From the NCBI RefSeq assembly GCF_009908295.1, contig NZ_JAAALO010000001.1, positions 248,001 to 312,000 of the forward strand: a stretch of DNA of 64,000 bases, given 5' to 3'. Shown here piece after piece: positions 25,220 to 50,314 of the stretch. How positions within the stretch are numbered: position 1 is the first letter of the stretch; the number at the start of each line of letters is the position of its first letter. A model generated the notes under the pieces. It saw only the letters and a program-made list of their open reading frames with translations. It was not told where the DNA came from and did not search any database. The position numbers were made by a program, and so were the translations under genes. This DNA is from Micromonospora rubida. GTDB lineage: Bacteria > Actinomycetota > Actinomycetes > Mycobacteriales > Micromonosporaceae.

Positions 25220-26065
25220 TCAGGGTACGACGACGACGGGCGCCGGGGCGGGCGCGGGGGCGACCCGGTCGGCGAGCATCCGCTGGCTGTCGCGCTGGTG
25301 CCGCAGCCGGGCGTCGTCGAGGTCGGCGACGGCCACGCCGGCGGTGGCCCCGGCGTCGGCGAGGGGACGGCCGTCGGGGGCGTACACGGCGCTGTGGCCG
25401 GCGAACCGCCACCCGCCGTGCGTCCCGGCGAAGTTGGCGAACACCACGTAGCTGGTGTTCTCCAGGGCGCGGGCCGGGAAGTAGACGCTTCTGCGGTGGT
25501 CGGAGTCGCCGACGGTGAACGCGCCGGACACCAGGTAGGCGTCCGCGCCGGCCAGCGCGAGGCCCCGGGCGTGCTCGGGGAAGCTGGCGTCGTAGCAGAC
25601 GCCGAGGCCGAGCCGCCAGCCGCGCACCCGCACGAGGGTGTCGGTGGTGCCGGGGACGAAGACCTTCCGCTCGTCGGCGTCGAGGTGCCGCTTGTGGTAG
25701 GTCGCGGCGACCGCGCCGTCCGGACCGACCACGTGGGCGGCGATGGCCCAGCCGTCGGCCCGCCGGGCGCAGCCGCCGACCACGGCGGTCACCCCACGGT
25801 CCCGGCAGGCCTGGCCCACCGTACGCAGGGCCGGGTCGCCGGGGGCGACCTCGCACCGGGCGACGTCGGCGGTGAGCAGCGGGTAGTCGTACCCGCACAG
25901 CGACAGCTCGGGGAAGACGACCAGGCTCGCGCCCAGGTCGGCGGCCCCGGCGATCGCGTCGGCGTGCGCGGCGGCGTTGCCGGTCAGGTCGCCGCCGACC
26001 GCCTCGATCTGCGCCGCCGCCACCCGCAGCGGCTGCCGCAGCGGGGTGTCGCCCGTCGTCGTCAC
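25220..26065 (-). CDS. Carbon-nitrogen hydrolase (nitrilase superfamily amidase)
   Basis: A 281-residue hydrolase of C-N bonds with the complete Glu-Lys-Cys triad: E53 in VVFPELSLCGYD, K125 in TYHKRHLD, and C157 in LGLGVCYDASFPEHAR. It also has DSDHRRSVYFPARALENTSYVVFAN and SAVYAPDGRPL. Members cut amides, ureas or nitriles in the cytoplasm. GTG 26065 overlaps the AzlD stop by four bases (GTGA), so it is translated with the transporter and the NRPS genes. In the cluster it could free the active amino acid from an amide precursor or detoxify it; the substrate is unknown. Confidence 0.88.
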   Translation of the reverse strand: MTTTGDTPLRQPLRVAAAQIEAVGGDLTGNAAAHADAIAGAADLGASLVVFPELSLCGYDYPLLTADVARCEVAPGDPALRTVGQACRDRGVTAVVGGCARRADGWAIAAHVVGPDGAVAATYHKRHLDADERKVFVPGTTDTLVRVRGWRLGLGVCYDASFPEHARGLALAGADAYLVSGAFTVGDSDHRRSVYFPARALENTSYVVFANFAGTHGGWRFAGHSAVYAPDGRPLADAGATAGVAVADLDDARLRHQRDSQRMLADRVAPAPAPAPVVVVP

Positions 26066-26400
26066 ATCGCCCCCAGCCACCAGCGCAGCCCGAAGAAGAC
26101 CGCCAGCCCGACGGTCCACACGATCATGAACCGTTCGACGAAGAGGCCGGTCACCAGGGTCACCACCCCGGCCACCAGGTACGGGATCGTGACCACGGTG
26201 ATCTCCACCCGGTTGTCGACGGGGGCGAGCACCGACGGCACCGCGATCGCGGCGAGCAGCGCGGGCGGCAGGTAGCCGAGGAACGTCTTCACGTCGGCGG
26301 GCAGCTCCCGGTCGCGGAAGACCAGCAGCGGCACGTACCGGGGGGCGAAGGTGGCCAGCCCCATCCCGAGGATGAGCAGCAGCATCGACATCGCGGTCAC
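26062..26400 (-). CDS. azlD: AzlD-type small subunit of an amino-acid exporter
   Basis: A 112-residue membrane protein with four predicted helices, of usual AzlD length. It shows LLLILGMGLATFAPRYVPLLVF, the Pro-rich FLGYLPPALLAAIAVPSVL, and YLVAGVVTLVTGLFVERFMIVWTVGLAVF. AzlD works with AzlC to export branched-chain or related small amino acids. The start GTG 26400 overlaps the AzlC stop by four bases. Confidence 0.9.
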   Translation of the reverse strand: MTAMSMLLLILGMGLATFAPRYVPLLVFRDRELPADVKTFLGYLPPALLAAIAVPSVLAPVDNRVEITVVTIPYLVAGVVTLVTGLFVERFMIVWTVGLAVFFGLRWWLGAM

Positions 26401-27338
26401 CTTCCGTCCACGTCAGCGGCGGCGTCGGCCGCCCGGTCCCCGGCCCGTACCGGCTCACCGGGGCGCCCGCGCGGCACGGCCCCCGGCGGCGGCCCGTCCG
26501 GCGGCGACCCGGCACCTGCCGCGCCCGCCGCGACCTCCGGTTCCACCGGGCGGGCCGGGTCGGACGGGTCCGGCGGGGCGGCCGGGTCGGCGGGCTTCGG
26601 CGGGAACCAGCGGCGTTCGATCCGCTCGCAGGCCATGCCGACGCAGGCACCGCCGAGCGCGGCCAGGATCAACCCCAGGTTGTACGGCAGGCCGAGGGTC
26701 AGCATGGCCAGCGCGCCGGCCGAGACGGCGCTGGTCCAGATCTTCCAGCCGGCGAGGGCCCCGGCGAGCACGACCAGGAAGACCGCGGTCATCGGGAAGT
26801 CCAGGCCGTCGCGCAGCCGCTCCGGCAGCAGGTGCCCCGCGACCATGCCGACGACCGTGGCGATCGCCCAGTTGACGTACATGATGGCGGACGCGCCGAA
26901 GTAGAACATGCTCTTGCGGCGGGCCGGCTCGTCGCCCTTGATCCGGTCGAACGCGACGAAGAACACCGCGTCGATCAGCCCGAAGCCGAGCAGCAGCCGC
27001 CACCGCTGCGGCAGCTCCCGCACGTGCGGGGCGAGCAGCGTCGAGTAGATCAGCATGCGCAGGCTCAGGATGAGGGTGGTAAAGATGATCACCGGCCACG
27101 CCGCGCCCTCGGCGATCAGCTTGAAGCCGATGAACTGGGCGGTGCCGGAGTTGACCACCATGGCCAGCCCGAAGGTCTCCAGGTAGGACAATCCGCTGGC
27201 CAGGCCGAGCGTCCCGCCGATCACCCCGAGGGGGAACGCGGAGATCAGGAACGGCACCATCGTGCGGGCCCCGGCGACGAACTCGCCGCGCGGCGTCGCG
27301 GGCCGCTCGGCGGCGCTGGTGGGCGTGCGGTCAGACAT
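26397..27338 (-). CDS. azlC: AzlC-type large subunit of an amino-acid exporter
   Basis: A 313-residue inner-membrane protein. The family signature FPLGVIGGTLGLASGLSYLET with GLAMVVNSGTAQFIGFKL is followed by LSLRMLIYSTLLAPHVRELP, GFGLIDAVFFVAFDRI and YFGASAIMYVNWAIATVVG. The last 60 residues are a Pro/Gly/Ala-rich cytoplasmic tail, unusual for the family. ATG 27338 overlaps the end of the Ser NRPS gene by eight bases. AzlCD exports small amino acids and their analogues. Fused to the biosynthetic operon it is a good candidate for export and self-protection, comparable to AmbA, the LysE-type exporter of the Pseudomonas amb cluster. Confidence 0.9.
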   Translation of the reverse strand: MSDRTPTSAAERPATPRGEFVAGARTMVPFLISAFPLGVIGGTLGLASGLSYLETFGLAMVVNSGTAQFIGFKLIAEGAAWPVIIFTTLILSLRMLIYSTLLAPHVRELPQRWRLLLGFGLIDAVFFVAFDRIKGDEPARRKSMFYFGASAIMYVNWAIATVVGMVAGHLLPERLRDGLDFPMTAVFLVVLAGALAGWKIWTSAVSAGALAMLTLGLPYNLGLILAALGGACVGMACERIERRWFPPKPADPAAPPDPSDPARPVEPEVAAGAAGAGSPPDGPPPGAVPRGRPGEPVRAGDRAADAAADVDGR

Positions 27339-30300
27339 GGTCCTCCCCGGGGCGGCGGGCACGCGGAGCGGCCGGGCCGGCGGCGCCGACGAGGGCGGCC
27401 ACCTCCCCGGCGCGGGTACGGCAGAAGTAGTGTCCCCCACCGTCGATCTCTTCGAGGGTCACGTCGGCGGCGATTCGCCGCCACGCGGCGTGCTCGTCGG
27501 CCGAGCCGGCGGTGAGCGGGTCGTCGCCGGCGAGCACCACCGTCACCGGCACCGTCAGCGGCCGGTCGGCCAGCGCGTCGAGCCGGTCCCGCAGGTACGC
27601 GTGCGAGCCGAGCGCGTCGTGCCGGAACGCGGCGACCAGCGCCGAGGTGTGGTCGGCGTCGAGACCGTCGAGGTCGGTGAAGCCGGTCTGCCCGACCAGC
27701 CAGTCCACCACCCCCGCCTCGTCGAGGGCCCGCACCTCGGCGATGCTGGCGTCGATGTCGGCCGCGTCCCGCAGCAGCTTGCCGCCGAGGAAGAGCCGCA
27801 CCGGCGGGGCCCCGGCGGCGGCGAGCAGCCGGGTCACCTCGACGGCCAGGGCCGCGCCGACGCAGTGCCCCCAGAGCAGCACCTCGCCCCGGGCGTCGGC
27901 GCGGATCTCGTCGGCCACCCGCCGGGCCACCTCGTCGAGGTCGACCAGCGGCTCGGGGTTGCCGGGGTCGTGACCGGGCAGGGCCACCGCCTGCACGGCC
28001 ACGCCGTGCCCGGCGAGCGCCCCGGCGAGGGGACGGAAGGCCAGCGGGTTGCCGGCGGCGTACGGGAAGCAGACCAGGACCCGGTCGGAGGCGACGCCCG
28101 ACGGCGACAGCGGCTGGAGCAGCGGGTCGTCGCCGGCCCGGGCGACCCTGGCCCCGACCGCCGCGCCGGACCCGGAGGCGACCGCCGCGCCGGACCCGGA
28201 GGCGACCGCCGCGCCGGACCCGGACCCCGTGCCGGAGCCGGCGGGGGCCTCGGCGGACTGGGCGGGCTTGGCGGGCTTGGCGGGCTGGGTGGCCTCGGCG
28301 GCCCGGGCCAGCGGGCCGAGGTCGGAGTGGGTCATCAGCTGCCGCAGGGTGACCAGCGGGCGCAGCGCGGCGACGACCCGCATCGCGGCGAGGGAGTTCC
28401 CGCCGAGGTCGAAAAAGTTGTCCTCCTCGGCGATGTCGTCGACCGGCACGTCCAGGGTCGCGGCCCAGACCTCGGCGATGCGCCGGGCCACGTCGGTGGC
28501 GGGCGGGGTGCGCCCGGCGGGGCCGGCGGCCGGGGCGGGCGCGGTCCGGCTGAAGGTCCGCCGCGCGGGGGTGACCCGGGCCGGCGGCAGGCCGGCGGCG
28601 TACCCGCCGTGCGGGGCGTCCGGGGTGTCGGCCAGCGCGGCGAGGGCCCGCCGGTACGCCTCACCGATCCCGGCCGCCTGCTCCGGGCTGAACTCCGCCG
28701 AGTGGTAGTGCAGGCTCAGCCGGACCTCGTCGGTGAAGAAGTCGCGCATGAACTCGGCGCGCAGGGCGAACTCGGTCTCGGTGCTGACCCGCACGTCGAG
28801 CAGGTCGAAGCCCGGCCGCTCCCGCAGCCGCTTGAGCAGGTAGAAGTGGGTGTAGTTGAACACCGTCTCGAACAGCGGGTCGGTGGTGGCGGCGTCGGCC
28901 TTCATCTGGGCCATCGGGTAGCGCCGGTGCGGCAGCAGGTCCGCCTCGGCCCGGTAGACCCGGCCGACGAGGTCGGCCCAGCTTCCGCCGCCGAGGTCCA
29001 CGCGCAGCGGCACGGTGTTGAGGAACAGCCCCATCGCGGTCGTGGCGCCCTCGGACTCGGGCCGGCCGCTCTGCTCGTACCCGGTGACGACGGCCGCCTC
29101 GGCGGCGAGCGCGCCGATGACCTTGACGTGCGCGGCGAGCAGCAGGGTCTTCAGCGGCACGGCGAGCCGGTCGGCCAGCCACAACAGCCGCTCGGACAGC
29201 CCGGCGGACACGTCCACCTCGTGGAAGGCCACCGGGCGTTGCGCCTCGGCGGTCGGCGGCTCCCAGCGGGGCAGCTCGGTCACCCCGCCGTCGGCCAGCA
29301 CGTCCCGCCAGAAGTCCCGGTCGGCGGCCGAGGCGACGGCCCGGCGTTCCAGGCCGATGTAGTCGCGGAAGTGGTTCCCGGCCGGCGGCTCGGGCAGCGG
29401 CCGGCCGTCGCGCAGCCGGTGGTACGTGTCGAACAGCCGGGTGTGCAGCAGGGTGATGCTCCACCCGTCCAGGGCCGAGTTGTGCTGGCTGAGGCTGTAC
29501 CGGTACAGGTCGTCGGCGAACAGGTGCACGTGGACGCGGACCAGCCCCGGCTCCCGCCAGACGAACCGGTACGCCTGCTCCCGGTCGTGCCAGTCGGCGT
29601 ACCGGCGCTCCTGCTCGGCCGGGTCGAGGCCGCGCAGGTCGGTCACCCACAGCGGGGTCGGCGCGTCGGCGTGCACGAGCTGGAGGTACTCGTTGTACCC
29701 GGTGAGGTGATAGCTGGTGCGGAAGATCGGATTGTCGGCGACCAGCCGCCGCACCGCCCCGGTGAACGCGGCCTCGTCGAACGGCGCGCTGATCAGGAAG
29801 CTGATGATGTCGTGGTACTGGGCCGCGCCCCGGGCCAGCTCGTTCTGGAAGATCAGCCCGGCCTGGAGCTGCCCCAGCGGGTACGCGTCGACCACCCCGT
29901 CGGGCAGCAGCGCCCGGTCGGCCGGGGACACCAGGTCGAACGGCGCGTACGTGGGGGGCCGCTCGCCGGTCGCCGGGGCCGCCGCGAGGGCGGCGATGGT
30001 GGGGTGGCGGAACATCTGCTGGAAGGTGAGGTCCAGCCCGGCGGCGTGCGCCCGGGCGAGCACGGTGACGAAGTGGATGGAGTTGCCGCCGAGGGCGAAC
30101 AGGTTGTCCTCCACCCCCACCCGGTCCACCCCGAGCACGTCGGCCCACACCTCGGCGAGAATCCGCTCGGCGTCGGTGCGCGGCGGCACGTACGGGCGGT
30201 CGTCGGCGGGCGGGTCGGGCAGCGCCCGCCGGTCGAGCTTGCCGCTGCCGGACAGCGGGAACTCGGCCAGCTCCACCACCCGGGCCGGGACGAGGTGCCG

Positions 30301-32481
30301 GGGCAGCAGGCCGGACAGGTGTTCGGTGAGCGCCCGCTCGGCCACCGGGGAGTGGGTCAGCACGTACCCGAGGAGGTTGCCGTCTCGGGCCACCACCACG
30401 GCGTCCTTCACCGCCGGGTGGCCGCGCAGCGCCTCCTCCACCTCGCCCAGCTCGACCCGGTGGCCGCGCACCTTGACCTGGTGGTCGAGGCGGCCCAGGT
30501 AGTCGATCGTGCCGTCGGGCAGCACCCGGGCCAGGTCGCCGGTGCGGTAGACCCGCTCCTCCCCCGCGTCCGGGGCGGCCACGAACCGGTCCCGGGTCAG
30601 CTCGGGGCGGTTGAGGTAGCCCCGGGCGAGCTGCACGCCGGCGATGCACAGCTCGCCGGGCACCCCGACCGGCTGGACCCGCAGCCGCTCGTCGAGGACG
30701 TGCAGCCGGGTGTTGTCCACCGGCCGGCCGATCGGCACCCGGTCGGCGCCGGGCACGCAGCGGTGGTGGGTGACGTCGACGGTGGCCTCGGTCGGGCCGT
30801 ACAGGTTGACGAGGGTGACGTGCGGCAGCAGCGCGGCGAGCCGGTCGACGTGGTGTGGGCCGAGCGCCTCGCCGCTCGCGAAGACCCGGCGCAGCCCGGC
30901 CAGCGGCGCGGTGTCGGCGGTGGCCAGCCAGTCGAGGAACGCCCCCAGCATGGACGGGACGAAGTGCAGGGTGGTCACCCCGTGCGCGGCGACCGCCGCG
31001 ACGATGGCCTGCGGATCGCGTTCCGCGCCGGGCGGCAACAGGCACACCGACGCGCCCTCGCGGGCCCACCAGAACAGCTCCCACACCGACACGTCGAAGG
31101 TGGTGGGGGTCTTGTGCAGGACGACGTCGTCCGGGCCGATCGGGTGCAGCCGTTGCATCCAGGCGAGCCGGTTGGCCAGCGACCCGTGCTCGATCATCGC
31201 CCCCTTCGGGGCGCCGGTGGAGCCGGAGGTGTAGATGACGTACGCCAGGTCCCGCCCGTCGGCCTCCGCCGGCGGCCCGGCCTCCACCGCGTCGGCCTCC
31301 GGCGCGGTCACCGCCGCGTCGGGCGGCGGCAGCGGGAGCGCCGGGACGCCCTCGGGGACGGCCGCCGGGTCGGCGGCCAGCACGAGCGCCGCGCCGCTGT
31401 CGGCCAGCAGGTAGCCGATCCGGGCCGACGGGTAGCCGGGGTCGACCGGCAGGTAGGCCGCGCCGGCGCGGTGCACGGCGAGGATCGCCGCGAGCTGGGC
31501 GGGCGACCGCTCGGCGAGCACGCCGACGACGGTCTCCGGGCCCGCGCCGGCCGCCCGCACGGTCGCGGCGAGGGCGGCCACCCGCCGGTCCAGCTCCGCC
31601 CAGGTCCAGGTGACCTCGTCGGTACGCACGGCGACGGCGTCGGGCGTCTCGGCGGCCCGGCGGGCCACCCAGGCGTCGGGGCGCAGGGCGAGGTCCGTGG
31701 CGGTGTTGGGGTCCGTGGCGGTGTTGGGGACCACGGCGGTGTCGTTCATCGCGTCGAGCACCGCCCGGTCGGCGGGGGTGACCAGGGCGACGTCGTCGAC
31801 CGGGGCGTCCGGGGCGGCGAGCGCGGCGGTCAGCAGGAGCAGCAGGTGCCCGGCGATCCGGTCGGCGGTGGCCCGGTCGTGGCGGGCCGCGTCGTGGTGC
31901 ACGGTCAGCTCGGCGACGGAGACCGCCACGGTGACGCCGACGCGGGGGTCGGGGGCGGCGTCGGTGGTGTGCACGGCGACGTCGAGAAACGGGTGCCGGT
32001 CGGCCTCGGCGTGCGGGGCGAGGTCCTCGGCGAGCAACTCGACGGGGTAGTCGGCGTACCGCTGCGCCTCGGGCAGCGCCGCGCGGAGCTGCCCAACCAG
32101 GTCCCGGTAGCTGACGTCGGGGCCGCCGGTCACCGGCAGGGGCAACAGGCCGGCCAGCGCGTCGCCGTCGGCCGGGCGGCCGACCAGCAGCGCCGACGCG
32201 CCGGTCCAGCGACGCAGCAGCGCCGCCACGGCGGCGGCCACCAGCACGTACCGGGCGGGCTCGGCGCCCCGGCTGGCGACGGCGAGCCGGTCGGCCAGCG
32301 CGGCGCCGAGGGGCACGGTGACGGCCTGCGGGCGGGCCGGGGCGCCGGGGGCGGGGGTGCGGTCGGCGGGGAAGCCGACCCGGTCCGCGCCGGCGGTGAG
32401 CACGTCGCGCCAGTGCCGGGCGTGGTCGGGCCGCCGCGCCGCGGCGATCCTGAGCTGGCCCCGGGTCATCAGAGACTGCAT
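27331..32481 (-). CDS. NRPS, C*-A(Ser)-PCP-C-PCP-TE
   Basis: A 1,716-residue NRPS. Domains: a truncated condensation-like part without HHxxxDG (C*, 1-250); an adenylation domain (265-765) with YTSGSTGAPKG and pocket residues read as DVWHFSLVDK, the serine code; PCP with S801 (LGGNS); a C domain (865-1290) whose active motif reads HNSALDG, so the second, catalytic His is Asn1001; PCP with S1363; a repetitive linker; and a thioesterase (1460-1710) whose nucleophile is C1540 in GHCVGA instead of Ser. The second PCP has no A domain of its own. The architecture equals AmbE without the methyltransferase. Cys-type TEs are known from ring-forming NRPSs (beta-lactone, beta-lactam). ATG 32481 lies 16 bp after the PCP-C gene, with GGAGAG upstream. 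The final product of this module is not known. Confidence 0.92.
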   Translation of the reverse strand: MQSLMTRGQLRIAAARRPDHARHWRDVLTAGADRVGFPADRTPAPGAPARPQAVTVPLGAALADRLAVASRGAEPARYVLVAAAVAALLRRWTGASALLVGRPADGDALAGLLPLPVTGGPDVSYRDLVGQLRAALPEAQRYADYPVELLAEDLAPHAEADRHPFLDVAVHTTDAAPDPRVGVTVAVSVAELTVHHDAARHDRATADRIAGHLLLLLTAALAAPDAPVDDVALVTPADRAVLDAMNDTAVVPNTATDPNTATDLALRPDAWVARRAAETPDAVAVRTDEVTWTWAELDRRVAALAATVRAAGAGPETVVGVLAERSPAQLAAILAVHRAGAAYLPVDPGYPSARIGYLLADSGAALVLAADPAAVPEGVPALPLPPPDAAVTAPEADAVEAGPPAEADGRDLAYVIYTSGSTGAPKGAMIEHGSLANRLAWMQRLHPIGPDDVVLHKTPTTFDVSVWELFWWAREGASVCLLPPGAERDPQAIVAAVAAHGVTTLHFVPSMLGAFLDWLATADTAPLAGLRRVFASGEALGPHHVDRLAALLPHVTLVNLYGPTEATVDVTHHRCVPGADRVPIGRPVDNTRLHVLDERLRVQPVGVPGELCIAGVQLARGYLNRPELTRDRFVAAPDAGEERVYRTGDLARVLPDGTIDYLGRLDHQVKVRGHRVELGEVEEALRGHPAVKDAVVVARDGNLLGYVLTHSPVAERALTEHLSGLLPRHLVPARVVELAEFPLSGSGKLDRRALPDPPADDRPYVPPRTDAERILAEVWADVLGVDRVGVEDNLFALGGNSIHFVTVLARAHAAGLDLTFQQMFRHPTIAALAAAPATGERPPTYAPFDLVSPADRALLPDGVVDAYPLGQLQAGLIFQNELARGAAQYHDIISFLISAPFDEAAFTGAVRRLVADNPIFRTSYHLTGYNEYLQLVHADAPTPLWVTDLRGLDPAEQERRYADWHDREQAYRFVWREPGLVRVHVHLFADDLYRYSLSQHNSALDGWSITLLHTRLFDTYHRLRDGRPLPEPPAGNHFRDYIGLERRAVASAADRDFWRDVLADGGVTELPRWEPPTAEAQRPVAFHEVDVSAGLSERLLWLADRLAVPLKTLLLAAHVKVIGALAAEAAVVTGYEQSGRPESEGATTAMGLFLNTVPLRVDLGGGSWADLVGRVYRAEADLLPHRRYPMAQMKADAATTDPLFETVFNYTHFYLLKRLRERPGFDLLDVRVSTETEFALRAEFMRDFFTDEVRLSLHYHSAEFSPEQAAGIGEAYRRALAALADTPDAPHGGYAAGLPPARVTPARRTFSRTAPAPAAGPAGRTPPATDVARRIAEVWAATLDVPVDDIAEEDNFFDLGGNSLAAMRVVAALRPLVTLRQLMTHSDLGPLARAAEATQPAKPAKPAQSAEAPAGSGTGSGSGAAVASGSGAAVASGSGAAVGARVARAGDDPLLQPLSPSGVASDRVLVCFPYAAGNPLAFRPLAGALAGHGVAVQAVALPGHDPGNPEPLVDLDEVARRVADEIRADARGEVLLWGHCVGAALAVEVTRLLAAAGAPPVRLFLGGKLLRDAADIDASIAEVRALDEAGVVDWLVGQTGFTDLDGLDADHTSALVAAFRHDALGSHAYLRDRLDALADRPLTVPVTVVLAGDDPLTAGSADEHAAWRRIAADVTLEEIDGGGHYFCRTRAGEVAALVGAAGPAAPRARRPGEDHV
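28160..28225. repeat. 24-bp coding tandem repeat in the PCP-TE linker
   Basis: Two full units and one partial unit of a 24-bp repeat that encodes GSGAAVAS in the Ser NRPS. It forms a flexible tether between the last PCP and the thioesterase and has no other apparent role. Confidence 0.8.
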
Positions 32482-32497
32482 GATCTCGCTCTCCGGC

Positions 32498-38000: not shown

Positions 38001-38698
38001 CCCGCCAGCTCCCGCCGGACCAGGTCGAGCAGGACCGCCGGGGAGTCGGCCAGGTACATGTGGCCGCCGGGCAGCCGCCGCGCGGCGAAGCCGGCCGAGG
38101 TGACCCGCTCCCAGCCGACCAGCGCCGCGTCCGCGACGAGGGCGTCCTCCTCGCCGCGCAGCGCGGTGACCGGCACCTCGATCCGCTTGTCGGACGCCGG
38201 CCGGTACGTCTCGTGCAGTTCCACGTCGGCGCGCAGCCCGGGCAGCAGCAGCTCCCGCATGTCCGGGTCCTCCAGGGCCGGGTGGGTGTAGCCGGCGAAC
38301 TCCTCCACCCGGGCGACGAACTCGTCGTCGGGCAGGTCGGCGGCCGTGCGGTCCCGGCCCGACCAGGGATCGGGCGAGCCGCTGACGAACAGGTGCGCCA
38401 CGGTCACCCCGGCCGTCCCGGTCAGCCGGCGGGTCATCTCGTACGCCAGGACCGCGCCCATGCTGTGCCCGAACAGGGCCACCCGGTCCGCCCCGGCGAC
38501 CAGTTCCAGCACCTCGTCGAGCAGCCCGTCGACGGCCTGCTCCATCCGGCGGTAGGGCTCCTCGACGAACCGCTTCTCCCGCCCGGGCAGCGACACCGGG
38601 GCGACCTCCAGCTCGGGCGGGGCGAGGCGACGCCACGGTTGGTACACCGACGGGCCCGCGCCGGCGTACGGGAAGCAGAGCAGTGTCGTGCGGGTCAA
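37997..38698 (-). CDS. Type II thioesterase (Ser nucleophile)
   Basis: A 233-residue alpha/beta hydrolase of the NRPS-editing type. It shows LCFPYAGAGPSVYQPWRRL, PGREKRF, S79 in FGHSMGAVLAYEM, and the His in LPGGHMYL. Such enzymes remove wrong or blocked groups from carrier proteins. The start is a TTG at 38698 that overlaps the stop of the other thioesterase gene (TTGA); no ATG or GTG is available at this end. Confidence 0.92.
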   Translation of the reverse strand: MTRTTLLCFPYAGAGPSVYQPWRRLAPPELEVAPVSLPGREKRFVEEPYRRMEQAVDGLLDEVLELVAGADRVALFGHSMGAVLAYEMTRRLTGTAGVTVAHLFVSGSPDPWSGRDRTAADLPDDEFVARVEEFAGYTHPALEDPDMRELLLPGLRADVELHETYRPASDKRIEVPVTALRGEEDALVADAALVGWERVTSAGFAARRLPGGHMYLADSPAVLLDLVRRELAG

Positions 38699-42400: not shown

Positions 42401-44785
42401 GTGCTGGCGCAGGGCGGCGGCGACCTCCCCCGGTTCGATCCGGAAGCCGTTGACCTTCACCTGGTCGTCGAGCCGGCCCAGGTACGCCAGCCGCCCGTCG
42501 GCGTCGAAGCGCACCCGGTCGCCGGTGCGGTAGACCCGCTCTGCGCGCCCCGACGGCAGGGTCACCGTGACGAACCGGCGGGTGGTGGTCTCCGGGTCGC
42601 CGAGGTAGCCGTCGGCGAGCTGGGGGCCGCTGAGACACAGCTCGCCGGCCACCCCGGGCGGCAGCGGGCGGAGCTGCCCGTCGAGCACCCACGCCCCCAC
42701 CCCGGGCAGCGGCCGGCCGATGGTCGGCGCGGCCCCGGCGGTGATCTCGGCGGCGGTGGCGTCCACGGTGCACTCCGTCGGGCCGTACAGGTTGACCGCC
42801 CGCACCCCGGGCAGCCCGGCGAGGGCGTCCCACAGGTCGGGGGCGACCGCCTCGCCGCCGAGCAGCAGCAGCCCCGGCAGCCGGGTCCGGCCCGTGGCCA
42901 CCCCGTCGGCGGCGAGCAGGATGCGGAGCTGCGACGGGGTCAGGTCGAGCACGTCGACCCGGTTCTCCGCGAGCACGGCGGCCAGCTCGGCGCCGTCGCG
43001 GCGGGCCTCCTCCGGCACCAGGTACAGGGTTCGGCCGTGGCCGAGCTGGACGAGCTGTTTGATCGAGGCGTCGAAGGTCAGCGGGGCGTTCACCGCGACC
43101 CGAGCCCCGGCCGTGGTGCCGGCGTGCACGGTGCGTTCCAGGGCGTGCGCCAGGTGGGCGGCGGCACCGTGCGAGACCTGCACCGGGCGCGGGGCCCCGG
43201 TGGAGCCGGAGGTGAAGATGACGTACGCCGGGTCGGCCGGCCGGGAGGCGGGCACGGCGGCGGTGGCGGCGGTGGCCGCCAGCTCGGCGACGCCCACGGC
43301 CGGCACGTCCCCGACGGCCCGGTCGCCGAGCACCAGGCCGGCTTCGACCGCGCGGACCAGGGCGGCGAGCCGCTGCGCCGGGGCGGCCGGGTCCAGCGGC
43401 ACGTACACCGCGCCGGCCCGCAGCACGCCGAGGAACCCGACGACGGTGTCCCGGGACCGGGTGGCCAGCACGCCGACCCGCCGGCCGCCGTGCAGGCCGA
43501 GCTCGACCAGGCCGGCGGCGACCCTGGCGGACAGCTCGCGCAGCTCCCCGAAGGTGTACGCCCCGTCGGCGGCGACCACCGCCTCGGCGTCCGGGTCGGC
43601 GGCGGCGAGCCCGTCGTCGAGCAGCTCGGCGAGGGTGCGGGTGGGCGCGTCGGACGCGCTGCCGGCGGCCTCGACCAGCCAGCCCGCCTCGGCCGCGCCG
43701 AGCAGGGCCAGCGGGGTGCCGTCGGTCAGCGCTCCGGGCAGCGTGCCGAGGACGGCGAGCAGCCCGTCGCGCAGCGCCCGGCCGCCGGTCACCCGCAGGG
43801 TCACCGCGTCCGGGCCGCACACGGCGGTCAGGTGCGGGCCGGCGGGCGGCGCCGGGACGTCGACGTCCACGGCGGTGGCGCCGAGGCCGGCCAGGGTCGA
43901 CGGGTCGACGGCCGGCACGGCGGCGAAGCCGGCCACCACGTCGGAGTCGACGCCGACCGGCTCCAGCAGATGGAACGCCTCCTCGGCCGGGCGCTCCGCG
44001 ACGCGTACCTCGTCGAGGAGCTGCTTGGGCGCGGCCGGCAGGGGCAGGCCGAGCCGGACCGGCGCGTAGCCGCCCAGCGGCCCGACCACGGCGGCGGTCC
44101 CGTCGGCGTGCCGGCCGTCGGTCCACCGGGCAAGCACCAGATCGGCGTCGTCGGCCCCGGCGGGCGGCTCGGCGCGGCGGGACAGGGTCAGCGCCCACGC
44201 GGCGAGCAGCAGGCTGGGCACGCCCACCCCGGCGGCCTCGGCGGCGGCGGCCAGCGGGCCGAGCGGCACGTCCGCCTCCGCCGGCCCGTCGGCGTCGGCG
44301 TCGCCGTGCGGGGCGACCAGCCGGGCGGCCGGCGCGGCGGGGGCCGCCGACGGCTGCGCCTCCTGGCGCTCGCCGAGCTGCCACTCGGAGACGTCGAGGA
44401 ACTGCAACCCGTCCGGGTCGTCGGCGAGGCCCTGCCCGGCGTACGCGGCGGCCAGGTCGGCCAGCACCAGCCGCAGGCTCGCGGGGTCGGCGAGCAGCGG
44501 GGTGGCGGCCAGCTCCAGGGTGTCGTCGGTGAGGGTCACCGACAGCTCGCCGGCCGCGCCGACGGTGACCGAGCGGGCGTCGTCGACGTCCTGCAACGGC
44601 ACCCGCAGGCCGGGGTGGTGCACCAGGGTCAGCCGCAGCGCCTCGTGCCGGGCGACCACCGCGTCCACGGCGGCCTGCAGGCGCGCGGCGTCCAGGGGCC
44701 GGTCCAGGCGGACCTGGGCCCGGACCAGCTCCCGCGCGCCGGTGTAGGCGAGCCGCTGGACCGGGGAGAGTCGGTAACCGTTCAC
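39443..44785 (-). CDS. NRPS, C*-A(Glu)[FkbM methyltransferase]-PCP-C-PCP; AmbE-like
   Basis: A 1,780-residue NRPS. Domains: a condensation-like part (1-390) whose HHxxxDG site reads TPLLADP, hence presumed inactive; an A domain (about 400-1155) with FTSGSTGAP and pocket residues read as DAKDLGLVDK, close to the glutamate code; between motifs A8 and A10 an FkbM-type SAM methyltransferase (about 830-1090: IFDVGANIGMFSLFA, HAFEPVPSV, LLKIDVQRAEADVL); PCP with S1200; a C domain with intact H1415-H1416 (HHAVLDG); and a second PCP with S1740 lacking its own A domain. This layout and the Glu code match AmbE of Pseudomonas aeruginosa, apart from the missing TE. GTG 44785 overlaps the oxygenase stop by four bases. 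Inferred role: hold Glu while two oxygenases and the methyltransferase turn it into a methoxyvinylglycine-type residue. Confidence 0.93.
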   Translation of the reverse strand: MNGYRLSPVQRLAYTGARELVRAQVRLDRPLDAARLQAAVDAVVARHEALRLTLVHHPGLRVPLQDVDDARSVTVGAAGELSVTLTDDTLELAATPLLADPASLRLVLADLAAAYAGQGLADDPDGLQFLDVSEWQLGERQEAQPSAAPAAPAARLVAPHGDADADGPAEADVPLGPLAAAAEAAGVGVPSLLLAAWALTLSRRAEPPAGADDADLVLARWTDGRHADGTAAVVGPLGGYAPVRLGLPLPAAPKQLLDEVRVAERPAEEAFHLLEPVGVDSDVVAGFAAVPAVDPSTLAGLGATAVDVDVPAPPAGPHLTAVCGPDAVTLRVTGGRALRDGLLAVLGTLPGALTDGTPLALLGAAEAGWLVEAAGSASDAPTRTLAELLDDGLAAADPDAEAVVAADGAYTFGELRELSARVAAGLVELGLHGGRRVGVLATRSRDTVVGFLGVLRAGAVYVPLDPAAPAQRLAALVRAVEAGLVLGDRAVGDVPAVGVAELAATAATAAVPASRPADPAYVIFTSGSTGAPRPVQVSHGAAAHLAHALERTVHAGTTAGARVAVNAPLTFDASIKQLVQLGHGRTLYLVPEEARRDGAELAAVLAENRVDVLDLTPSQLRILLAADGVATGRTRLPGLLLLGGEAVAPDLWDALAGLPGVRAVNLYGPTECTVDATAAEITAGAAPTIGRPLPGVGAWVLDGQLRPLPPGVAGELCLSGPQLADGYLGDPETTTRRFVTVTLPSGRAERVYRTGDRVRFDADGRLAYLGRLDDQVKVNGFRIEPGEVAAALRQHPGVADAAVVARDDDGHGARLVGYVTPADAGATVDVDRVVGINPHETRYLYDEIFVQQVYLRDGVVLRQGATIFDVGANIGMFSLFAHAVCPDATIHAFEPVPSVADALRRNVAAFGVPATVHPYGLAAEPGQVSFTYYPGYAMMSGHAEYADPDAERAVIKRFLANERDRGEADRDTLLDRVDELLQERFAGDTLTVDVRPLSDVIDEVAPERIDLLKIDVQRAEADVLAGLHERHWPLVAQVAMEVHDGVGTPTEGRLDELIAFFEERGFDVVTRQDDLLVGTDRYTLHAVRPEYADDPRPVVTAPEPAGGEPLADRLAGWLADRLPAHLVPAAVVVLDALPLTRNGKLDRAALPAPELGRRSAGPQVAPANRAEEILVEAWREVLGVPTVGVTESFFALGGDSIRSIQMQVAANRRGLSFRLRDIFVHQSIRELVEHGEISLADPDAGSADAAGQPAAETPDAEAFVLLAAADRYRLPAGVVDAYPMTALQQGMLYHCELTGDPATYHNVTAHRIDAPLDADALRAAFAALVAAHPVLRTGFAPGGYAEPLQLVHADVPVEVPVRDLTGADEETRRARVDALIEAERTRPFDMARPPLVRLYALDEGADGFTLVVAEHHAVLDGWSLEAFVRALLADHDRRRAGRSAPAPATLPFRAYVAAERAALADPAARRFWLDGAGAAAPLLLGGPAPRITVTRRVPLEPAVTDRVTGAARAAGVPVKAYLLAVHLRALGETTGRDEVVSGLVVGGRPEGEGSDATLGLFLNTLPVTATLRDRPLAELAGDAWHVERSLMGHHRFPLAEIVRAGGTGPRFDSFFNYTHFHAAPDAAGPRIVASRGITVDVAFSLAVDVEVAPDTGRLALTLQYDGRRFDDDWADRLAGTFTRLLAADPTAPLPPVGSAEAVPTDARSRWSARVAGLWREVVGVAPRSDDTGFVAAGGDSLRALRLVAGLRQRYGSDLTLAEFVALDDFGALVDRMARHG

Positions 44786-45801
44786 ACCACGCTCCGGTTG
44801 ACGTAGAGGTCGGACATGGCGACCAGGATCTGCCGGTCGCCGGAGAAGGGCTCCCGGCCGTGGGTGGCGAGGAAGTTGTCCACCACCAGCACGTCGCCGC
44901 GCTGCCACGGGACGGAGACGGCGTGCTCGCGGTACAGGTCGCGGATGCCGGCGACCACCTCGTCGTCGATCGGGCTGCCGTCGCCGTGGTACGCGTTGCG
45001 GGGCAACCCCTCCGGCCCGTACTCGCGCAGCAGGGCGGCGGCCACCTCGGCCGGCAGGTTCGAGGAGTGGAACAGGTGGGCGTGGTTGAACCACACGGTC
45101 TCGCCGGTGCGCGGGTGGGTGGCGGTGGCCTGCCGGCGGGCGCGGGTGCGCAGCCCGTCGTCGCCGAGCCAGGTGAACTCGGTTGCCGACGCGGCGCAGT
45201 ACGCCTGCACCTCGGCCCGGTCGGTGGTCTGGAACGCCTCCTGCCAGGGCAGGTCCAGGTGCGGGCCGTAGTTGCGCACGTAGCACAGGCCGTCGCGGGT
45301 GAACCGCTCGCGCACCTGCGCCGGGATCCGTGGGGTCACCACCCGCTCGCTGGCCAGCGGGGTGGCCCCGCCGTCGCCGGTGGCCGGCTGGGCGCACCAG
45401 AAGTACAGGTGGGTGGGCCAGTTGTGCGAGTACGACATCTCGTGGTGCAGCGGGATCCACTGTTCGGCGTTGAACTCGGTGGAGGTGAACACCCGGTCGG
45501 CGACCTCGTTGCGGGGGGCGGCCCGCTCCAGGTAGCCGAGCAGGTCCGGGGTGACGGCGCGGGCGGCGCGGCTGAAGTCGTCGGGGCTGCCCACCTCGAA
45601 GCCGCGGAAGAAGACCGCGCCGTACGAGTCGAGGTCGCGCAGCAGCTCGTCGTGGCGCCCGGCGAGCCAGCCGGCGAGGTCGAGGTCCGGCACGGTGGCC
45701 TCGACCAGCAGCACGAACGTGTCGTCGACCAGCACCCGGCGGGTGACCGGCGCGGTGGCGGCGGAGGTCGTGCCGCGGCGGCGCGGTCCCGGCCCACTCA
45801 C
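44782..45801 (-). CDS. TauD/SyrP-like Fe(II)/2-oxoglutarate oxygenase, AmbD-like
   Basis: A 339-residue oxygenase. The iron ligands are H119-x-E121 in PLHHEMSYSHNW and H314 in NFLATHGREPF, with the 2-oxoglutarate Arg near R323. The facial triad uses Glu, as in SyrP, which hydroxylates carrier-bound Asp, and in AmbC/AmbD as far as I recall. GTG 45801 overlaps the upstream oxygenase stop by four bases. It is the second of two paralogous oxygenases directly upstream of the Glu NRPS, as ambC-ambD are before ambE. It probably hydroxylates the PCP-bound Glu at one of its side-chain carbons. Confidence 0.9.
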   Translation of the reverse strand: MSGPGPRRRGTTSAATAPVTRRVLVDDTFVLLVEATVPDLDLAGWLAGRHDELLRDLDSYGAVFFRGFEVGSPDDFSRAARAVTPDLLGYLERAAPRNEVADRVFTSTEFNAEQWIPLHHEMSYSHNWPTHLYFWCAQPATGDGGATPLASERVVTPRIPAQVRERFTRDGLCYVRNYGPHLDLPWQEAFQTTDRAEVQAYCAASATEFTWLGDDGLRTRARRQATATHPRTGETVWFNHAHLFHSSNLPAEVAAALLREYGPEGLPRNAYHGDGSPIDDEVVAGIRDLYREHAVSVPWQRGDVLVVDNFLATHGREPFSGDRQILVAMSDLYVNRSVV

Positions 45802-46895
45802 GACCGGTCCCCCGTTGTCGCCGTGCCTGCCGGGGCGGACGCGGCCCCGGGGACGGGCGTGGACACGGATGCCGCCTCGGGGGCGGCGAACGGGTCGGAC
45901 ATCGCGGTGAGAATCCGCCGGGGCGGCGTGAACGGCTCCCGGGCGTGCGCGGCGAGCATGTTCTCCACCAGCAGCACGTCCCCGCGCCGCCAGGGGAACG
46001 ACCGGGTCTCCGCCGCGTACGCGGCGCGCAGCTCGGCGAGCACGTCGTCGCCGATCGGCGTGCCGTCGCCGTACGCGGTCTGGTAGGGCAGGTCCTCCTC
46101 GGCCAACGCCCGGCGCAGCCCGGCGCTGACCTCCTCGGGCAGCGAGGTGACGTGGAAGAACAACGCGTGGTTGAACCAGGTGCGCTCCCCGGTGACCGGG
46201 TGCTCGCGTACCGCCGGGCGGACCTGCCGGGTGCGTAGCTGCTCGTCGCCGACCCACTGCGCCTCGATCGCCGACCGGGCGCAGTACGCCTCCACCTCGG
46301 CGCGGCTGTCGGTCTGGAACGCGGTCTGCCAGGACAGGCTGATCCCGGGCAGGTAGTTGCGCTGGTAGCGGACCCCGCCCCGGCGCTCGAACTCCGCGAC
46401 GGTGGCCGGGCTCAGCCGGGCCAGCACCCGCCGGCTGTCCGCCAGCGGGGTACGCCCGCCCGCAGCCGGCTCGGTCTCGCAGAAGAACACGATCCGCAGC
46501 GGCCAGTTCAGCGTGTACGACTGCTCGTTGTGCAGCACGATCGGCTGGTCAGCGGGGTGCTCGGTGGAGGTGTAGACGCCCTCGGTCACCTCGCTGCGCG
46601 GCGAGGAGCGCTCGCCGTAGCTGAGCACGTCCCCGGAGAGGGCGGCCATCGCGGTGCGGAAGTCGGCGGCATCGGCCACGGCGAAGCCCCGGAACAGGAC
46701 GGCGGCGTGCCGCCGGGCCAACTCGTCGACGGTGGCCCGGTTGCCGGCCAGCCAGGTCGCCAGGTCAAGGTCGGGCAGGTTGGCCTGGACGAGGACCGGC
46801 AGCGGCCCGCCCGGCCAGTCGGGACGTACGTCGACCAGGGCTCGTTCCCGGTTGCGGCGCGGGATCACCGGCGCCACCCGGATCTGCTCAGTCAT
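45798..46895 (-). CDS. TauD/SyrP-like Fe(II)/2-oxoglutarate oxygenase, AmbC-like
   Basis: A 365-residue oxygenase. The iron ligands are H122-x-E124 in VLHNEQSYTLNW and H317 in MLAAHAREPF, with R326/R327 as the 2-oxoglutarate anchor. About 30 extra Ala/Thr/Pro residues close the protein. It is a clear paralogue of the next gene (shared GYGAVFFRGF-, WQ-AFQT- and WFNHA-type segments), but the two differ enough to act on different positions. ATG 46895 overlaps the Ala NRPS stop (ATGA). Confidence 0.9.
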   Translation of the reverse strand: MTEQIRVAPVIPRRNRERALVDVRPDWPGGPLPVLVQANLPDLDLATWLAGNRATVDELARRHAAVLFRGFAVADAADFRTAMAALSGDVLSYGERSSPRSEVTEGVYTSTEHPADQPIVLHNEQSYTLNWPLRIVFFCETEPAAGGRTPLADSRRVLARLSPATVAEFERRGGVRYQRNYLPGISLSWQTAFQTDSRAEVEAYCARSAIEAQWVGDEQLRTRQVRPAVREHPVTGERTWFNHALFFHVTSLPEEVSAGLRRALAEEDLPYQTAYGDGTPIGDDVLAELRAAYAAETRSFPWRRGDVLLVENMLAAHAREPFTPPRRILTAMSDPFAAPEAASVSTPVPGAASAPAGTATTGDRS

Positions 46896-49800
46896 CTCTC
46901 GTTCCCCCAAGGGCCATCGACACACTCGGCGAGGCTGCGCTGCGGGTCGATGGCCGCCCGGCGCAGCACCTCGGTGAAGCGGCGGTGCCACGCGGTGACG
47001 CGCCCGCCGTCGAACAGGTCGGTGCGGTAGGTCCAGAGCGCTTCCAGGTCGCCCCGGCGCTCGTCCAGCCAGAGGGTCAGGTCCAGCCGGGCGGCGTCCG
47101 GCGCGAGTTCCACGCCGGCGAAGTCCAGCCCCCAGGAGCCGTTCCAGGCCGCCGCCGGGGCGTTCTGCACGCCGAAGGCGACCTGGACGAGAGGGCTGCG
47201 GTGCGGGTGGCGGGCCGGGCGCAGCCGCTCCACCACGGCGTCGAACGGCACATCCTGGCGGGCGGCGGCGGACAGGGCGGCGGCGCGGGCCTCGGCGAGC
47301 AGGTCGGCGAAGGACCGGCCCGGCGCGGGGCGCAGCCGCAGCGGCATGGTGTTGACGAAGCAGCCGAGGCTCTCCTCGGCCGGCACGCTGGTCCGGCCGG
47401 CGAAGGCGGTGCCGACGAGCAGGTCCGTGCGCCCGGTTCCCGAGCCGAGCAGGGTGGCGAAGGCCGCCAGGCCGACCATGTAGAGGCTGGCCCGGTGCGC
47501 CCGGGCGAGCCGCCGGACGGCGTCGGCGGTGTCGGGGTCTACCGGGACGCGCAGGCTGGCCCCGTCGGGCCGGTCCGTGGCCCCGGTTCCCCGCCCTGCG
47601 GTCGGCCGAGCGGTCGGGCCCCCGGTCGGTCGCACGGTCGGCTCCCCGGTCGGCCGAGCGGTCGGGCCCTCGGTCGGTCGGGTGGCGTCGGGGGTGGCCG
47701 GCGCGGCGGCGAGGTCGAGCAGGGTGGGCGCGCCACGCAGCCCGGCGACGACCTCGTCGAGGGCCCGGCGGCCAGCCGGGCCGGCCAGCCAGTCCCGCTG
47801 CGCCACCGCGAACCCCGCCGGGCCGGGCGCGGGGTGGGCGGGCCAGGGCGGCCGGGGCCGGGCGACCCGCACGGCAGCCTCACGCTCGCTGTCGTAGCAG
47901 CGGCCGAGATCGCGGACGAGGACGCTGAACGACCAGTCGTCGCAGACGATGTGGTGGGCGACCAGCAGCAGCGCGAAGCGCCGCCGACCGTCGCCGACCA
48001 GGTGGGCGCGCAGCAGCGGCCCGGCGGCCAGGTCCATCGGGGTGCGGGCGCTGGTCGCGGCGATCCGGGCGACCCGCTCGGCCAACGGCACCCCGGGCAG
48101 AGGCGCCTCGATGACCAACTCCACCTGCGGGTCGTCGTGCACCCGCTGGACCGGGCCGGCCGCGGAGCCGGGGAAGACGGTGCGCAGCGCGGGATGCCGG
48201 GCGACCACCCGGCGCAGGGCCCGGGCCAGCGCCGCCCGGTCCACGGGCCCGCGCAGCTCGACCACGTAGGACACCAGGTACGAGGGGTCGGCGGGGTCGA
48301 GCTGGTGCAGGAACCACAGCCGACGTTGCGCCGCCGACAGCGGCGCGTCCCCGTCCCCCGTCGTCCCGGCGACCGGCCCGTCCCCGGTGGCGGCTGACCG
48401 TCCGGCGGTGGCCGAACCGGTGGCCGTGGCGGGGCCGGTCGCCGTCCCGTCCCGCGTCGGCCGGTTTCCCGTGGCCATCGGCGCGTCCCCGGCGGTCGCC
48501 GGCCCGTCCCCCGGGCCACCGGGACGGCCGGGGGCGGCGAGGTGGGCGGCGAGGGCGGCCACCGTGGGGTGGTCGAAGAGCGCGGCCGGCGGCACCGGCA
48601 CGCCGGTCGCGGCGGTGAGCCGGGCCGCGCACCGCACCGCCAGCAGGGAATCGCCGCCGAGGTCGAAGAAGTCGGCGTCCGGCCCGGTGACCGGCACCCC
48701 GAGCACGTCGCGCCACACGGCGGCCACCTCGCCGGCCGGGCCGGCGTCGCCCCCGTCGAAATCGGCCAAGGCGGGAGCGGCGTCGGGATCGTCCCAGGTC
48801 GGCGCCGGTAGGGCCGCCCGGTCGGTCTTGCCGCTCGGCGTGGTGGGCATCCGGTCCAACCAGACCACCACGGCCGGCACCATGGGTGCGGGCAGCCGCT
48901 CGCGCAGCCGGGCCGGCACGTCGTCGCGGCGCTGGCCGACCAGGTAGCCGACCAGCACCGGGTCGCCGCTCGGCCCGGTCCGCACCGCCGCGGCGGCCTC
49001 GCGTACGCCGGGCAGTGCGGCGAGGGCGGCACCGACCTCGCCCAGCTCGATCCGGTGTCCGCGCAGCTTCACCTGGTCGTCGAGGCGGCCGAGGAACTCC
49101 AGTTGCCCGTCGGGGCGCAGCCGCACCCGGTCCCCGGTGCGGTACATCCGGTCGCCGGGGCGGAACGGGTCGTCGAGGAAACGGGCCGCCGTCTCCTCGG
49201 GGCGGCCGAGGTAGCCCCGGGCCAGGCCGGCGCCGGCCAGGTACAACTCGCCGGGGGCCCCGGACGGAACGGGCAGGCCGTCGGTGTCGAGCACGTACGT
49301 CCGGGTGTGCGGCAGCGGCCGGCCGATCGGCGGCACTGTCCCGTCGGCGGTGACCTCCGCCCAGGTCGAGTAGGTGGTGTCCTCGGACGGGCCGTACAGG
49401 TTGAGCAGCCGGCGCACCCCCGGGCGGGCCCGGACCCGGGCGGCGAGGGCGGCGGTCAGCGGCTCGCCGGCCAGGCAGACGGTGCGCACGCCGGCCGGCA
49501 GGGCGTCGGCGGCGAGCAGCTCGCTCATCGCCGAGGGGACGGTGTTGACCAGGGTGACCGGCAGCCGGGCGGCGTCCGGCGCGGCGAGCGCGAGGACGGT
49601 GTCGACCAGCACGACCCTCCCGCCCCAGCAGAGCGGCCCGAATATCTCGAAGATCGACAGGTCGAAGCAGACGCTGGTGGCGGCGAGCATGCCGCCGAGT
49701 TCCTCGTCGGCGAAGGCGGACCGGGTCCAGTGCATCAGCACCGACGCGGAGCGGTGCTCGACGGCCACGCCCTTGGGGCGGCCGGTGGAGCCGGACGTGT

Positions 49801-50314
49801 AGATCACGTAGGCCAGGTCGGACGGTGCGCCGCCGACGTCCGGACGGCCGGCCGGCTGGTCGGCGAGGTCGAGGGCGTCCAGCGGCAGCGCCGCCTCGCC
49901 GAACCGGTCGGCGAGGCCGGAGCGGGTGAGCACCACCCGGGCACCGGAGTCCTCGGTCATGAACGCCACCCGGGCCGGCGGGTACGCCGGGTCGAGCGGC
50001 ACGTACGCCGCGCCGGCCTTGAGCACGGCGAGCAGCGCGACGACCAAATCCACGTCGCGGGTGAGGCAGACGCCGACCCGGTCCTGCCCGGTGACGCCCC
50101 GGGCGAGCAGGGCCCGGGCGAGCCGGTTGGCGGACTCGTCGAGTTGGCGATAGGTCAGCGAGCGGTCGCCGTGGCGCACCGCCTCAGCGTCGGGGGTCCG
50201 TTCCACCTGGGACTCGACCATCCGGTGCAGACAGTCGACGATGACCGGGATGCCGGAGGCGCGGGGAGTGATGGACCGGCGGACCGGGCCGGTGGGCCGG
50301 ACGGAGGTGGTCAC
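46892..50314 (-). CDS. NRPS, A(Ala)-PCP-C; AmbB-like
   Basis: A 1,140-residue NRPS that starts directly with an A domain (25-520), having IYTSGSTGRPKG and LYGPSEDTTY and pocket residues read as DLFNCALTYK, one change from a known alanine code. A PCP with S556 (LGGDS) and a C domain (660-1120) with HHIVCDD at H787-H788 follow. The C domain carries a Pro/Thr/Arg repeat insertion (near 47575-47690). A-PCP-C with Ala is the layout of AmbB, which in Pseudomonas loads Ala on its own carrier and on the last carrier of AmbE. GTG 50314 has GGGCGGGA upstream. It is the first gene of the operon, next to a 524-bp control region. Confidence 0.92.
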   Translation of the reverse strand: MTTSVRPTGPVRRSITPRASGIPVIVDCLHRMVESQVERTPDAEAVRHGDRSLTYRQLDESANRLARALLARGVTGQDRVGVCLTRDVDLVVALLAVLKAGAAYVPLDPAYPPARVAFMTEDSGARVVLTRSGLADRFGEAALPLDALDLADQPAGRPDVGGAPSDLAYVIYTSGSTGRPKGVAVEHRSASVLMHWTRSAFADEELGGMLAATSVCFDLSIFEIFGPLCWGGRVVLVDTVLALAAPDAARLPVTLVNTVPSAMSELLAADALPAGVRTVCLAGEPLTAALAARVRARPGVRRLLNLYGPSEDTTYSTWAEVTADGTVPPIGRPLPHTRTYVLDTDGLPVPSGAPGELYLAGAGLARGYLGRPEETAARFLDDPFRPGDRMYRTGDRVRLRPDGQLEFLGRLDDQVKLRGHRIELGEVGAALAALPGVREAAAAVRTGPSGDPVLVGYLVGQRRDDVPARLRERLPAPMVPAVVVWLDRMPTTPSGKTDRAALPAPTWDDPDAAPALADFDGGDAGPAGEVAAVWRDVLGVPVTGPDADFFDLGGDSLLAVRCAARLTAATGVPVPPAALFDHPTVAALAAHLAAPGRPGGPGDGPATAGDAPMATGNRPTRDGTATGPATATGSATAGRSAATGDGPVAGTTGDGDAPLSAAQRRLWFLHQLDPADPSYLVSYVVELRGPVDRAALARALRRVVARHPALRTVFPGSAAGPVQRVHDDPQVELVIEAPLPGVPLAERVARIAATSARTPMDLAAGPLLRAHLVGDGRRRFALLLVAHHIVCDDWSFSVLVRDLGRCYDSEREAAVRVARPRPPWPAHPAPGPAGFAVAQRDWLAGPAGRRALDEVVAGLRGAPTLLDLAAAPATPDATRPTEGPTARPTGEPTVRPTGGPTARPTAGRGTGATDRPDGASLRVPVDPDTADAVRRLARAHRASLYMVGLAAFATLLGSGTGRTDLLVGTAFAGRTSVPAEESLGCFVNTMPLRLRPAPGRSFADLLAEARAAALSAAARQDVPFDAVVERLRPARHPHRSPLVQVAFGVQNAPAAAWNGSWGLDFAGVELAPDAARLDLTLWLDERRGDLEALWTYRTDLFDGGRVTAWHRRFTEVLRRAAIDPQRSLAECVDGPWGNER

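Follow-up and report, generated by a model that had tools for sequence, protein, structure and literature searches.

The closest described counterparts of the operon reported here, which occupies part of a 64 000-nucleotide stretch of DNA (the window) in the 7.47 Mb genome of Micromonospora rubida, are the amb genes of Pseudomonas for L-2-amino-4-methoxy-trans-3-butenoic acid (AMB). In amb, a synthetase with adenylation (A), carrier (T) and condensation (C) domains, A(Ala)-T-C, is followed by two iron/2-oxoglutarate-dependent (Fe/2OG) oxygenases and by a second synthetase, C*-A(Glu)-MT-T-C-T, with an embedded methyltransferase (MT) (PMC4357302), and the window has the same genes in the same order. 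The amb peptide, which a sequence-only reading of the window had given as Ala-X-Ala, is released as Ala-AMB according to newer work (PMC8968710; PMC10880069), from which the roles of AmbC, AmbD, the MT and the C domain used in our model were also taken. The window differs from amb in its thioesterase (TE), a separate protein with a Cys nucleophile (fused and with Ser in the Pseudomonas loci L064 and L065), in its AzlCD exporter in place of the LysE-type AmbA, in the absence of H1632 from the dehydrating domain, and in an added Thr/Ser assembly line, short-chain dehydrogenase/reductase (SDR), nitrilase and pyridoxal 5'-phosphate (PLP) enzyme.

Three further systems resemble single parts of the operon. 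Legonmycin biosynthesis (LgnB/LgnA/LgnD) shares with the Thr part a stand-alone A(Thr)-T protein, a type II TE, which there moves Thr between carriers, a separate T followed by a C domain, and a dehydrating domain in the pathway (PMC10880069). In the window, Ser follows instead of Pro, the dehydrating-type domain stands after Ser and lacks the second His, and a starter C domain is missing; the likeness is an analogy by architecture. The closest solved relative of the C domain in the Ser module is that of McyA from microcystin biosynthesis (PDB entry 8jbr; 2.2e-83), with HHSILDG where the window has HNSALDG. We take the McyA domain to be a dehydrating domain with Ser as substrate. Finally, CalE6, a methionine gamma-lyase of the calicheamicin cluster of Micromonospora echinospora, is likewise a PLP enzyme of the Cys/Met family inside a Micromonospora cluster; it is a candidate for sulfur chemistry in a pathway with no oxyvinylglycine, and is likened here by its description (PMC4851618).

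The operon is probably of the amb type: from its sequence, its core would yield Ala-AMB, joined in a few strains by the Thr/Ser line and AzlCD, with the PLP enzyme likely protecting the producer. The predicted outcome is a new, longer AMB-type product. New with respect to amb are the separate Cys TE, the rare second line, AzlCD and the adjoining PLP enzyme.

Core synthetases and their substrates

The operon spans 50314 to 22912 of the minus strand and comprises, by Pfam and TIGRFAM matches, B, C, D, E, two TEs, the SDR, A-T, T-C, A-T-C-T-TE, AzlC, AzlD, a hydrolase, the PLP enzyme and an aminopeptidase. From B to the nitrilase-type hydrolase every start overlaps the preceding stop; the sole exception is the Ser synthetase, which begins after a gap of 16 bp.

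The first four genes were confirmed by Pfam and by specificity codes to be those described by the sequence-only reading. B (AmbB-like; 46892–50314) has the domains AMP-binding, PP-binding and Condensation, i.e. A-T-C. C (AmbC-like; 45798–46895; TauD, 7e-47) carries an HNE plus distal His motif and is the predicted 3-hydroxylase of carrier-bound Glu, and D (AmbD-like; 44782–45801; TauD, 1e-43), with HHE plus distal His, is the predicted 4-hydroxylase. E (AmbE-like; 39443–44785) reads as C*-A-MT-T1-C-T2 with two PP-binding matches and without a TE, the degenerate C* having been recognized by eye; its FkbM O-methyltransferase (PF05050, residues 869–1067; 41585–42181) lies inside the A domain. Codes were read with a script at the PheA positions and gave DLFNCALTYK (Ala) for B, DAKDLGLVDK (Glu) for E, DFWNVGMVHK (Thr) for the A-T protein and DVWHFSLVDK (Ser) for the Ser synthetase. 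The substrates in brackets are those that code-to-substrate tables assign to these codes. An Ala-type code was found in all 13 B genes read, and a Glu-type code in 16 of the 18 E genes scanned (one differs and one was unreadable).

Behind E stands a TE (38695–39450; GDCLGA) that is 36–39% identical to the TE region of L064 and L065, where this region is fused to E; judged by that identity it is the counterpart of the fused domain. The nucleophile is Ser in the fused Pseudomonas domain, Cys in Bradyrhizobium, Burkholderia and Roseitalea, and Ser in Saccharothrix. The earlier description of the window TEs as Cys enzymes holds for two of the three, this one and the release domain of the Ser synthetase (GHCVGA); the third, at 37997–38698, has Ser (GHSMGA).

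Oxygenases and dehydrating domain of the core

An oxygenase tree was built from 71 of 116 distinct sequences (45 near relatives omitted; merging of identical cores had reduced 177 segments to the 116). The Pseudomonas rows are those of P. mangiferae and P. sp. RIT-PI-AD (G300 and G301), while P. aeruginosa AmbC and AmbD and also SyrP are outside the tree; five of the 24 other genomes, among 398 of Pseudomonas, that have a TauD protein of 47–50% identity were included. Window C and the Pseudomonas C genes share a clade of 20 sequences (support 99/97); window D shares another, of 24 sequences, with its Pseudomonas D counterparts (support 99/99). The third TauD of the window genome lay outside both clades, as did TauD genes that neighbour other synthetases in cyanobacteria and Streptomyces. 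Some long branches were flagged by the program, none of them at the placements of C and D. Neither a grouping of the oxygenases elsewhere nor A domains for substrates other than Ala and Glu, the two outcomes named beforehand as speaking against an amb-like operon, was thus obtained.

The second C domain of E (39680–40948; motif HHAVLDGW) has the dehydrating domain of AmbE as its best PDB match (7r9x, 4.9e-83). Five AmbE residues, H1497, R1605, D1726, D1734 and Q1747, are required and are not conserved in other dehydrating domains (PMC10880069). The window and Pseudomonas loci share H1497, D1726, D1734 and Q1747 with AmbE. Of the loci with both oxygenases, 29 have a domain that shares 36% identity or more with the window query; in these, several of them from nearly related genomes, D1726 and Q1747 were present throughout, D1734 in 26 (the exceptions being three Streptomyces with His or Asn), and the position of R1605 was always Lys or Arg. 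The trio D1726/D1734/Q1747 was also found in two further both-oxygenase loci at 31–33% identity and in none of the remaining 86 C domains, 24 of which are gapped at all three columns. On the strength of the tree and this residue signature, the reading as an ordinary nonribosomal peptide synthetase (NRPS) with TauD genes was rejected.

Since gene order, oxygenase clades and an AmbE-like dehydrating domain with kept residues agree, the core very probably builds Ala-AMB with Glu as the precursor, and there is strong reason on sequence grounds to expect that its chemistry reaches an AMB-type residue; the earlier prediction of a vinylglycine-type residue from Glu is supported by the same tree, codes and domain. 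B would load Ala, and E would load Glu on T1. C would then hydroxylate C3 and D would hydroxylate C4, with methylation of O4 by the MT on T1, after which the C domain of B would add Ala. Removal of the 3-hydroxyl group by the dehydrating domain of E, with decarboxylation shifting the double bond, would pass Ala-AMB to T2, and the Cys TE behind E would replace the TE that is fused to E in Pseudomonas.

Occurrence of the core in other genomes

For comparison, 80 of 96 confirmed loci were retained, part of which match only around the methyltransferase. The order B-C-D-E(-TE) was found in Pseudomonas (L064, L065), Bradyrhizobium (L037, L038), Roseitalea (L059) and Saccharothrix (L039), and B-C-D-E, often with a TE behind, in many Micromonospora. 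The order is also present on a Burkholderia contig, where B is truncated, and part of the block occurs in some loci of Streptomyces and Myxococcota. Its recurrence across phyla puts the order beyond chance, and, together with the codes, supports the amb-like order and the Ala and Glu substrates first proposed; a search for the block in other actinomycetes, suggested with that proposal, thus found it in Saccharothrix and Micromonospora and in part in Streptomyces. P. aeruginosa was not reached in the Pseudomonas sets searched (2, 398 and 328 genomes), and its place was taken by P. mangiferae (L065) and P. sp. RIT-PI-AD (L064). In both, the dehydrating domain shares 62% identity with 7r9x. The C domain of L065 B hits AmbB (7x0e) at 8.7e-101, the second-best hit being 1e-21, and L065 E is one frame of 2140 codons that includes the TE; by these measures L065 is a true amb relative. 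No actinomycete AMB pathway was found in the literature searched, which lay mostly outside subscription journals, although two actinomycete database entries already bear the name 'Protein AmbC'.

In the family Micromonosporaceae, AmbC homologues of at least 80% identity, each with an adjoining D-like match, were found in 24 of 300 genomes, in a subset of which B and E were also read.

Two side observations concern the surroundings of the core. In four Micromonospora loci of another type (L153, L154, L155 and L156) a different polyketide synthase (PKS)-NRPS with a Cys TE-like end lies upstream of it, which suggests that other products, too, are made with this core. Searching plasmids turned up two Streptomyces records that carry AmbC-like oxygenases at 67%, two places in each (73 other records were below 60%); the core may therefore travel on plasmids.

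The Thr/Ser assembly line

As first described, the operon continues with an SDR, Thr and Ser modules and AzlCD genes, all confirmed by Pfam or codes. Overlooked had been the second dehydrating-type C domain, the PLP enzyme and the contrast between a rare Thr/Ser half and a widespread core. The type II TE with Ser (37997–38698; PF00975) is a possible LgnA-like aminoacyl shuttle, by analogy, and the SDR (37134–38000) may oxidize carrier-bound Thr. Its dependence on mycofactocin was considered and rejected: the TIGR03971 score of 270.8 bits is below the cut-off of 300 and no maturase exceeds its cut-off in the genome. The A(Thr)-T protein (34333–37137) begins with about 350 residues that resemble a degenerate C domain by eye without a Condensation match in Pfam. 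The T-C protein (32498–34336) has no A domain, and its C domain is closest in the PDB to the tyrocidine C domain 2jgp. The Ser synthetase (27331–32481) reads as a C-lobe remnant (by eye) followed by A(Ser)-T-C-T-TE.

The C domain of this synthetase (28609–29889) lies closest to characterized dehydrating domains, matching McyA and then AmbE (1.1e-52) before the next PDB entry at 7e-26, and it departs from HHxxxDG, the second His being Asn in all three copies read. Such a change was seen in three of 50 dehydrating-type domains, and absence of this His has been linked to altered function (PMC11342130); its AmbE counterpart, H1497, is required (PMC10880069). With this residue missing the activity is doubtful, and dehydration of Ser by the domain is, from its relatives, plausible.

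In this less certain second line, A-T would load Thr, which the SDR might oxidize and the Ser TE would hand over to T-C, as in LgnB/LgnA/LgnD. Once Thr is joined to Ser, the second dehydrating-type domain would remove water from that Ser, and chain release would fall to the Cys TE of the Ser synthetase. That this half is joined to the core chain is put at close to an even chance, though not above it. One joined peptide with AMB and a dehydroalanine-type residue is a guess, and an outcome of two small, unlinked peptides is almost as probable. In the latter case B-C-D-E and the Cys TE would release Ala-AMB, and the Thr/Ser line would make a small dehydropeptide of its own that leaves through the same AzlCD, an alternative that we consider a serious contender while leaning slightly away from it. 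It is favoured by the stand-alone TE directly behind E, where the Pseudomonas TE is fused, by the release domain that the second line has of its own, and by a domain order with no C domain plainly accepting from T2 of E; moreover, 21 of the 24 genomes have the close C-D pair without a T-C gene. The single overlapping string of genes speaks for joining, as does the finding that the T-C gene never occurs without the C-D pair: its orthologues were found in three of the 300 genomes, all three with the core. The T-C protein is also present in Micromonospora sp. C31, at a locus that ends inside the Ser gene. The fullest version, a hybrid peptide with two masked electrophiles (a Glu-derived methoxyvinylglycine and a Ser-derived residue of the dehydroalanine type), made with two dehydrating-type C domains and two Cys TEs and guarded by its own PLP enzyme, is an unlikely combination when all of its parts are required at once.

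The adjoining PLP enzyme

The interval 25220–50314 first assigned to the operon was too short, since a PLP enzyme (24013–25185) and then a prolyl aminopeptidase (22912–23892) lie beyond it. The PLP gene begins 34 bp after the nitrilase stop and is preceded by GAAGGAG, which resembles a ribosome-binding site. Its product belongs to the Cys/Met family (PF01053; methionine gamma-lyase/cystathionine gamma-synthase-like), keeps the PLP lysine and the stacking tyrosine (by eye in an alignment), and shares 41–44% identity with three further Cys/Met-family proteins encoded in this genome. At 80% identity or more it was found in 25 of the 300 genomes, including all 24 with the close C-D pair (Fisher p = 1.4e-34, shared descent ignored); the twenty-fifth, G249, is a relic without the core. 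In 21 of the 24 the gene is 7.3–7.5 kb away from where C starts and, in those read, follows E directly, and in the other three, which are of the window type, about 21 kb away behind the Thr/Ser half. A 58% copy lies behind the core in Saccharothrix (L039); over the stretches examined, the loci from Pseudomonas and Bradyrhizobium showed no copy.

Oxyvinylglycines inhibit eliminase-type PLP enzymes (PMC10880069; PMC4357302), so a resistant copy is the simplest reading, and self-resistance of the producer is rather likely to be the role of this gene, as far as its family and position indicate. A smaller share of probability, about half as much or less, goes to a tailoring role, in which gamma-replacement on the vinylglycine (or its PLP adduct) would turn AMB into another amino acid. 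The family catalyses gamma-elimination and gamma-replacement, the PLP Lys and Tyr are kept, and the gene stands directly behind E in those 21 genomes. Rhizobitoxine synthase RtxA also contains a domain of this family. Tailoring of free AMB would, however, need prior release, the enzyme is missing from the Pseudomonas and Bradyrhizobium stretches, and the inhibition just mentioned suits a resistant copy better (PMC10880069).

Points against the amb assignment

Several findings, in addition to the altered His of the Ser module, weigh against an amb-type operon with these accessory genes. The C domain of B matches AmbB (7x0e) at only 7.8e-29, against 4.6e-55 for the best other C domain; E ends at 39443 without a fused TE; and no LysE-type exporter like AmbA was found among the window genes scanned (some small frames fell outside the scan), where AzlC and AzlD are present instead. 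In the dehydrating domain of E, H1632 is replaced by Gly and R1679 by His. The co-occurrence of PLP enzyme and core is confined to one genus and mostly reflects common descent, and three of the 27 family genomes with AmbC of at least 62% identity, those at 62–64%, show no PLP enzyme at an E-value cut-off of 1e-120. In the relative G265 (L172, G265:C32:20000-36000, ~11820–11990) the nitrilase gene has an internal deletion, with the rest of the operon present. Relatives of the aminopeptidase occur in eight of ten genomes searched, including two without a close core, G003 (67%) and G123 (58%).

The altered residues bear on whether the core stops short of AMB, giving another Glu-derived residue such as 3-hydroxy-4-methoxy-Glu or a dehydro-Glu that retains its side-chain carboxylate. 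H1632 and R1605, reported to be important in AmbE, are Gly and Lys here; Lys is nevertheless usual at position 1605 in the domain class (78%; PMC11342130), and the window, like the Pseudomonas loci, retains H1497, D1726, D1734 and Q1747. We regard this outcome as improbable and retain Ala-AMB as the expected core product.

Other genes and borders of the locus

AzlC (26397–27338; PF03591) and AzlD (26062–26400; PF05437) would export the product; AzlD is 97% and 100% identical in two relatives. The carbon-nitrogen hydrolase of the nitrilase/amidase family (25220–26065; PF00795) was rejected as a sure member of the pathway because the middle of its gene is lost in G265, and may be dispensable. 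The prolyl aminopeptidase (family S33; TIGR01249, 309.6 bits, cut-off 259.75) adjoins the PLP gene in G265, G276 and G249 and is a possible trimming enzyme; given its relatives outside core-bearing genomes, it may be a plain chromosomal neighbour.

The window genome and G265, G276 and G249 have common borders, namely an SmpB gene (Pfam) and a small gene, both upstream, and an Hsp90 gene downstream. The short conserved gene upstream of B (51553 to ~52026, minus strand) has no Pfam match and shows, by eye, a stretch resembling a Phd antitoxin. Between smpB and the operon lies a large PKS-NRPS (52271–63976, minus strand) with two AMP-binding domains, a ketosynthase, an acyltransferase, three carriers, a luciferase-like monooxygenase and two C domains. 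It is present in G249 and, as no match to it lies upstream of B in G265 and G276, it was rejected as part of the conserved block. In G249 (L167, G249:C1:3066000-3084000) a natural deletion extends from inside B to inside AzlD and leaves a short remnant, while the PLP gene, the aminopeptidase and the PKS-NRPS are retained. That this PKS-NRPS feeds B through its terminal C domain, with Ala then not the first residue, is the least probable of the alternatives, for although it lies on the same strand and ends in a C domain, it has no match between smpB and B in the block-bearing G265 and G276, persists in G249 despite loss of most of the block, and is separated from B by about 2 kb and the small conserved gene.

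Implications

A pathway known in detail from one pseudomonad is now extended to a large actinomycete genus, and its many natural orthologues can be used to probe the importance of individual residues in the dehydrating domain. From the Thr/Ser half a product is predicted that did not come up in the literature searched. The PLP enzyme is a named candidate for how an AMB producer tolerates an inhibitor of PLP enzymes and, if this self-protection is true, it would be a strategy of oxyvinylglycine resistance not found described for amb in that literature.

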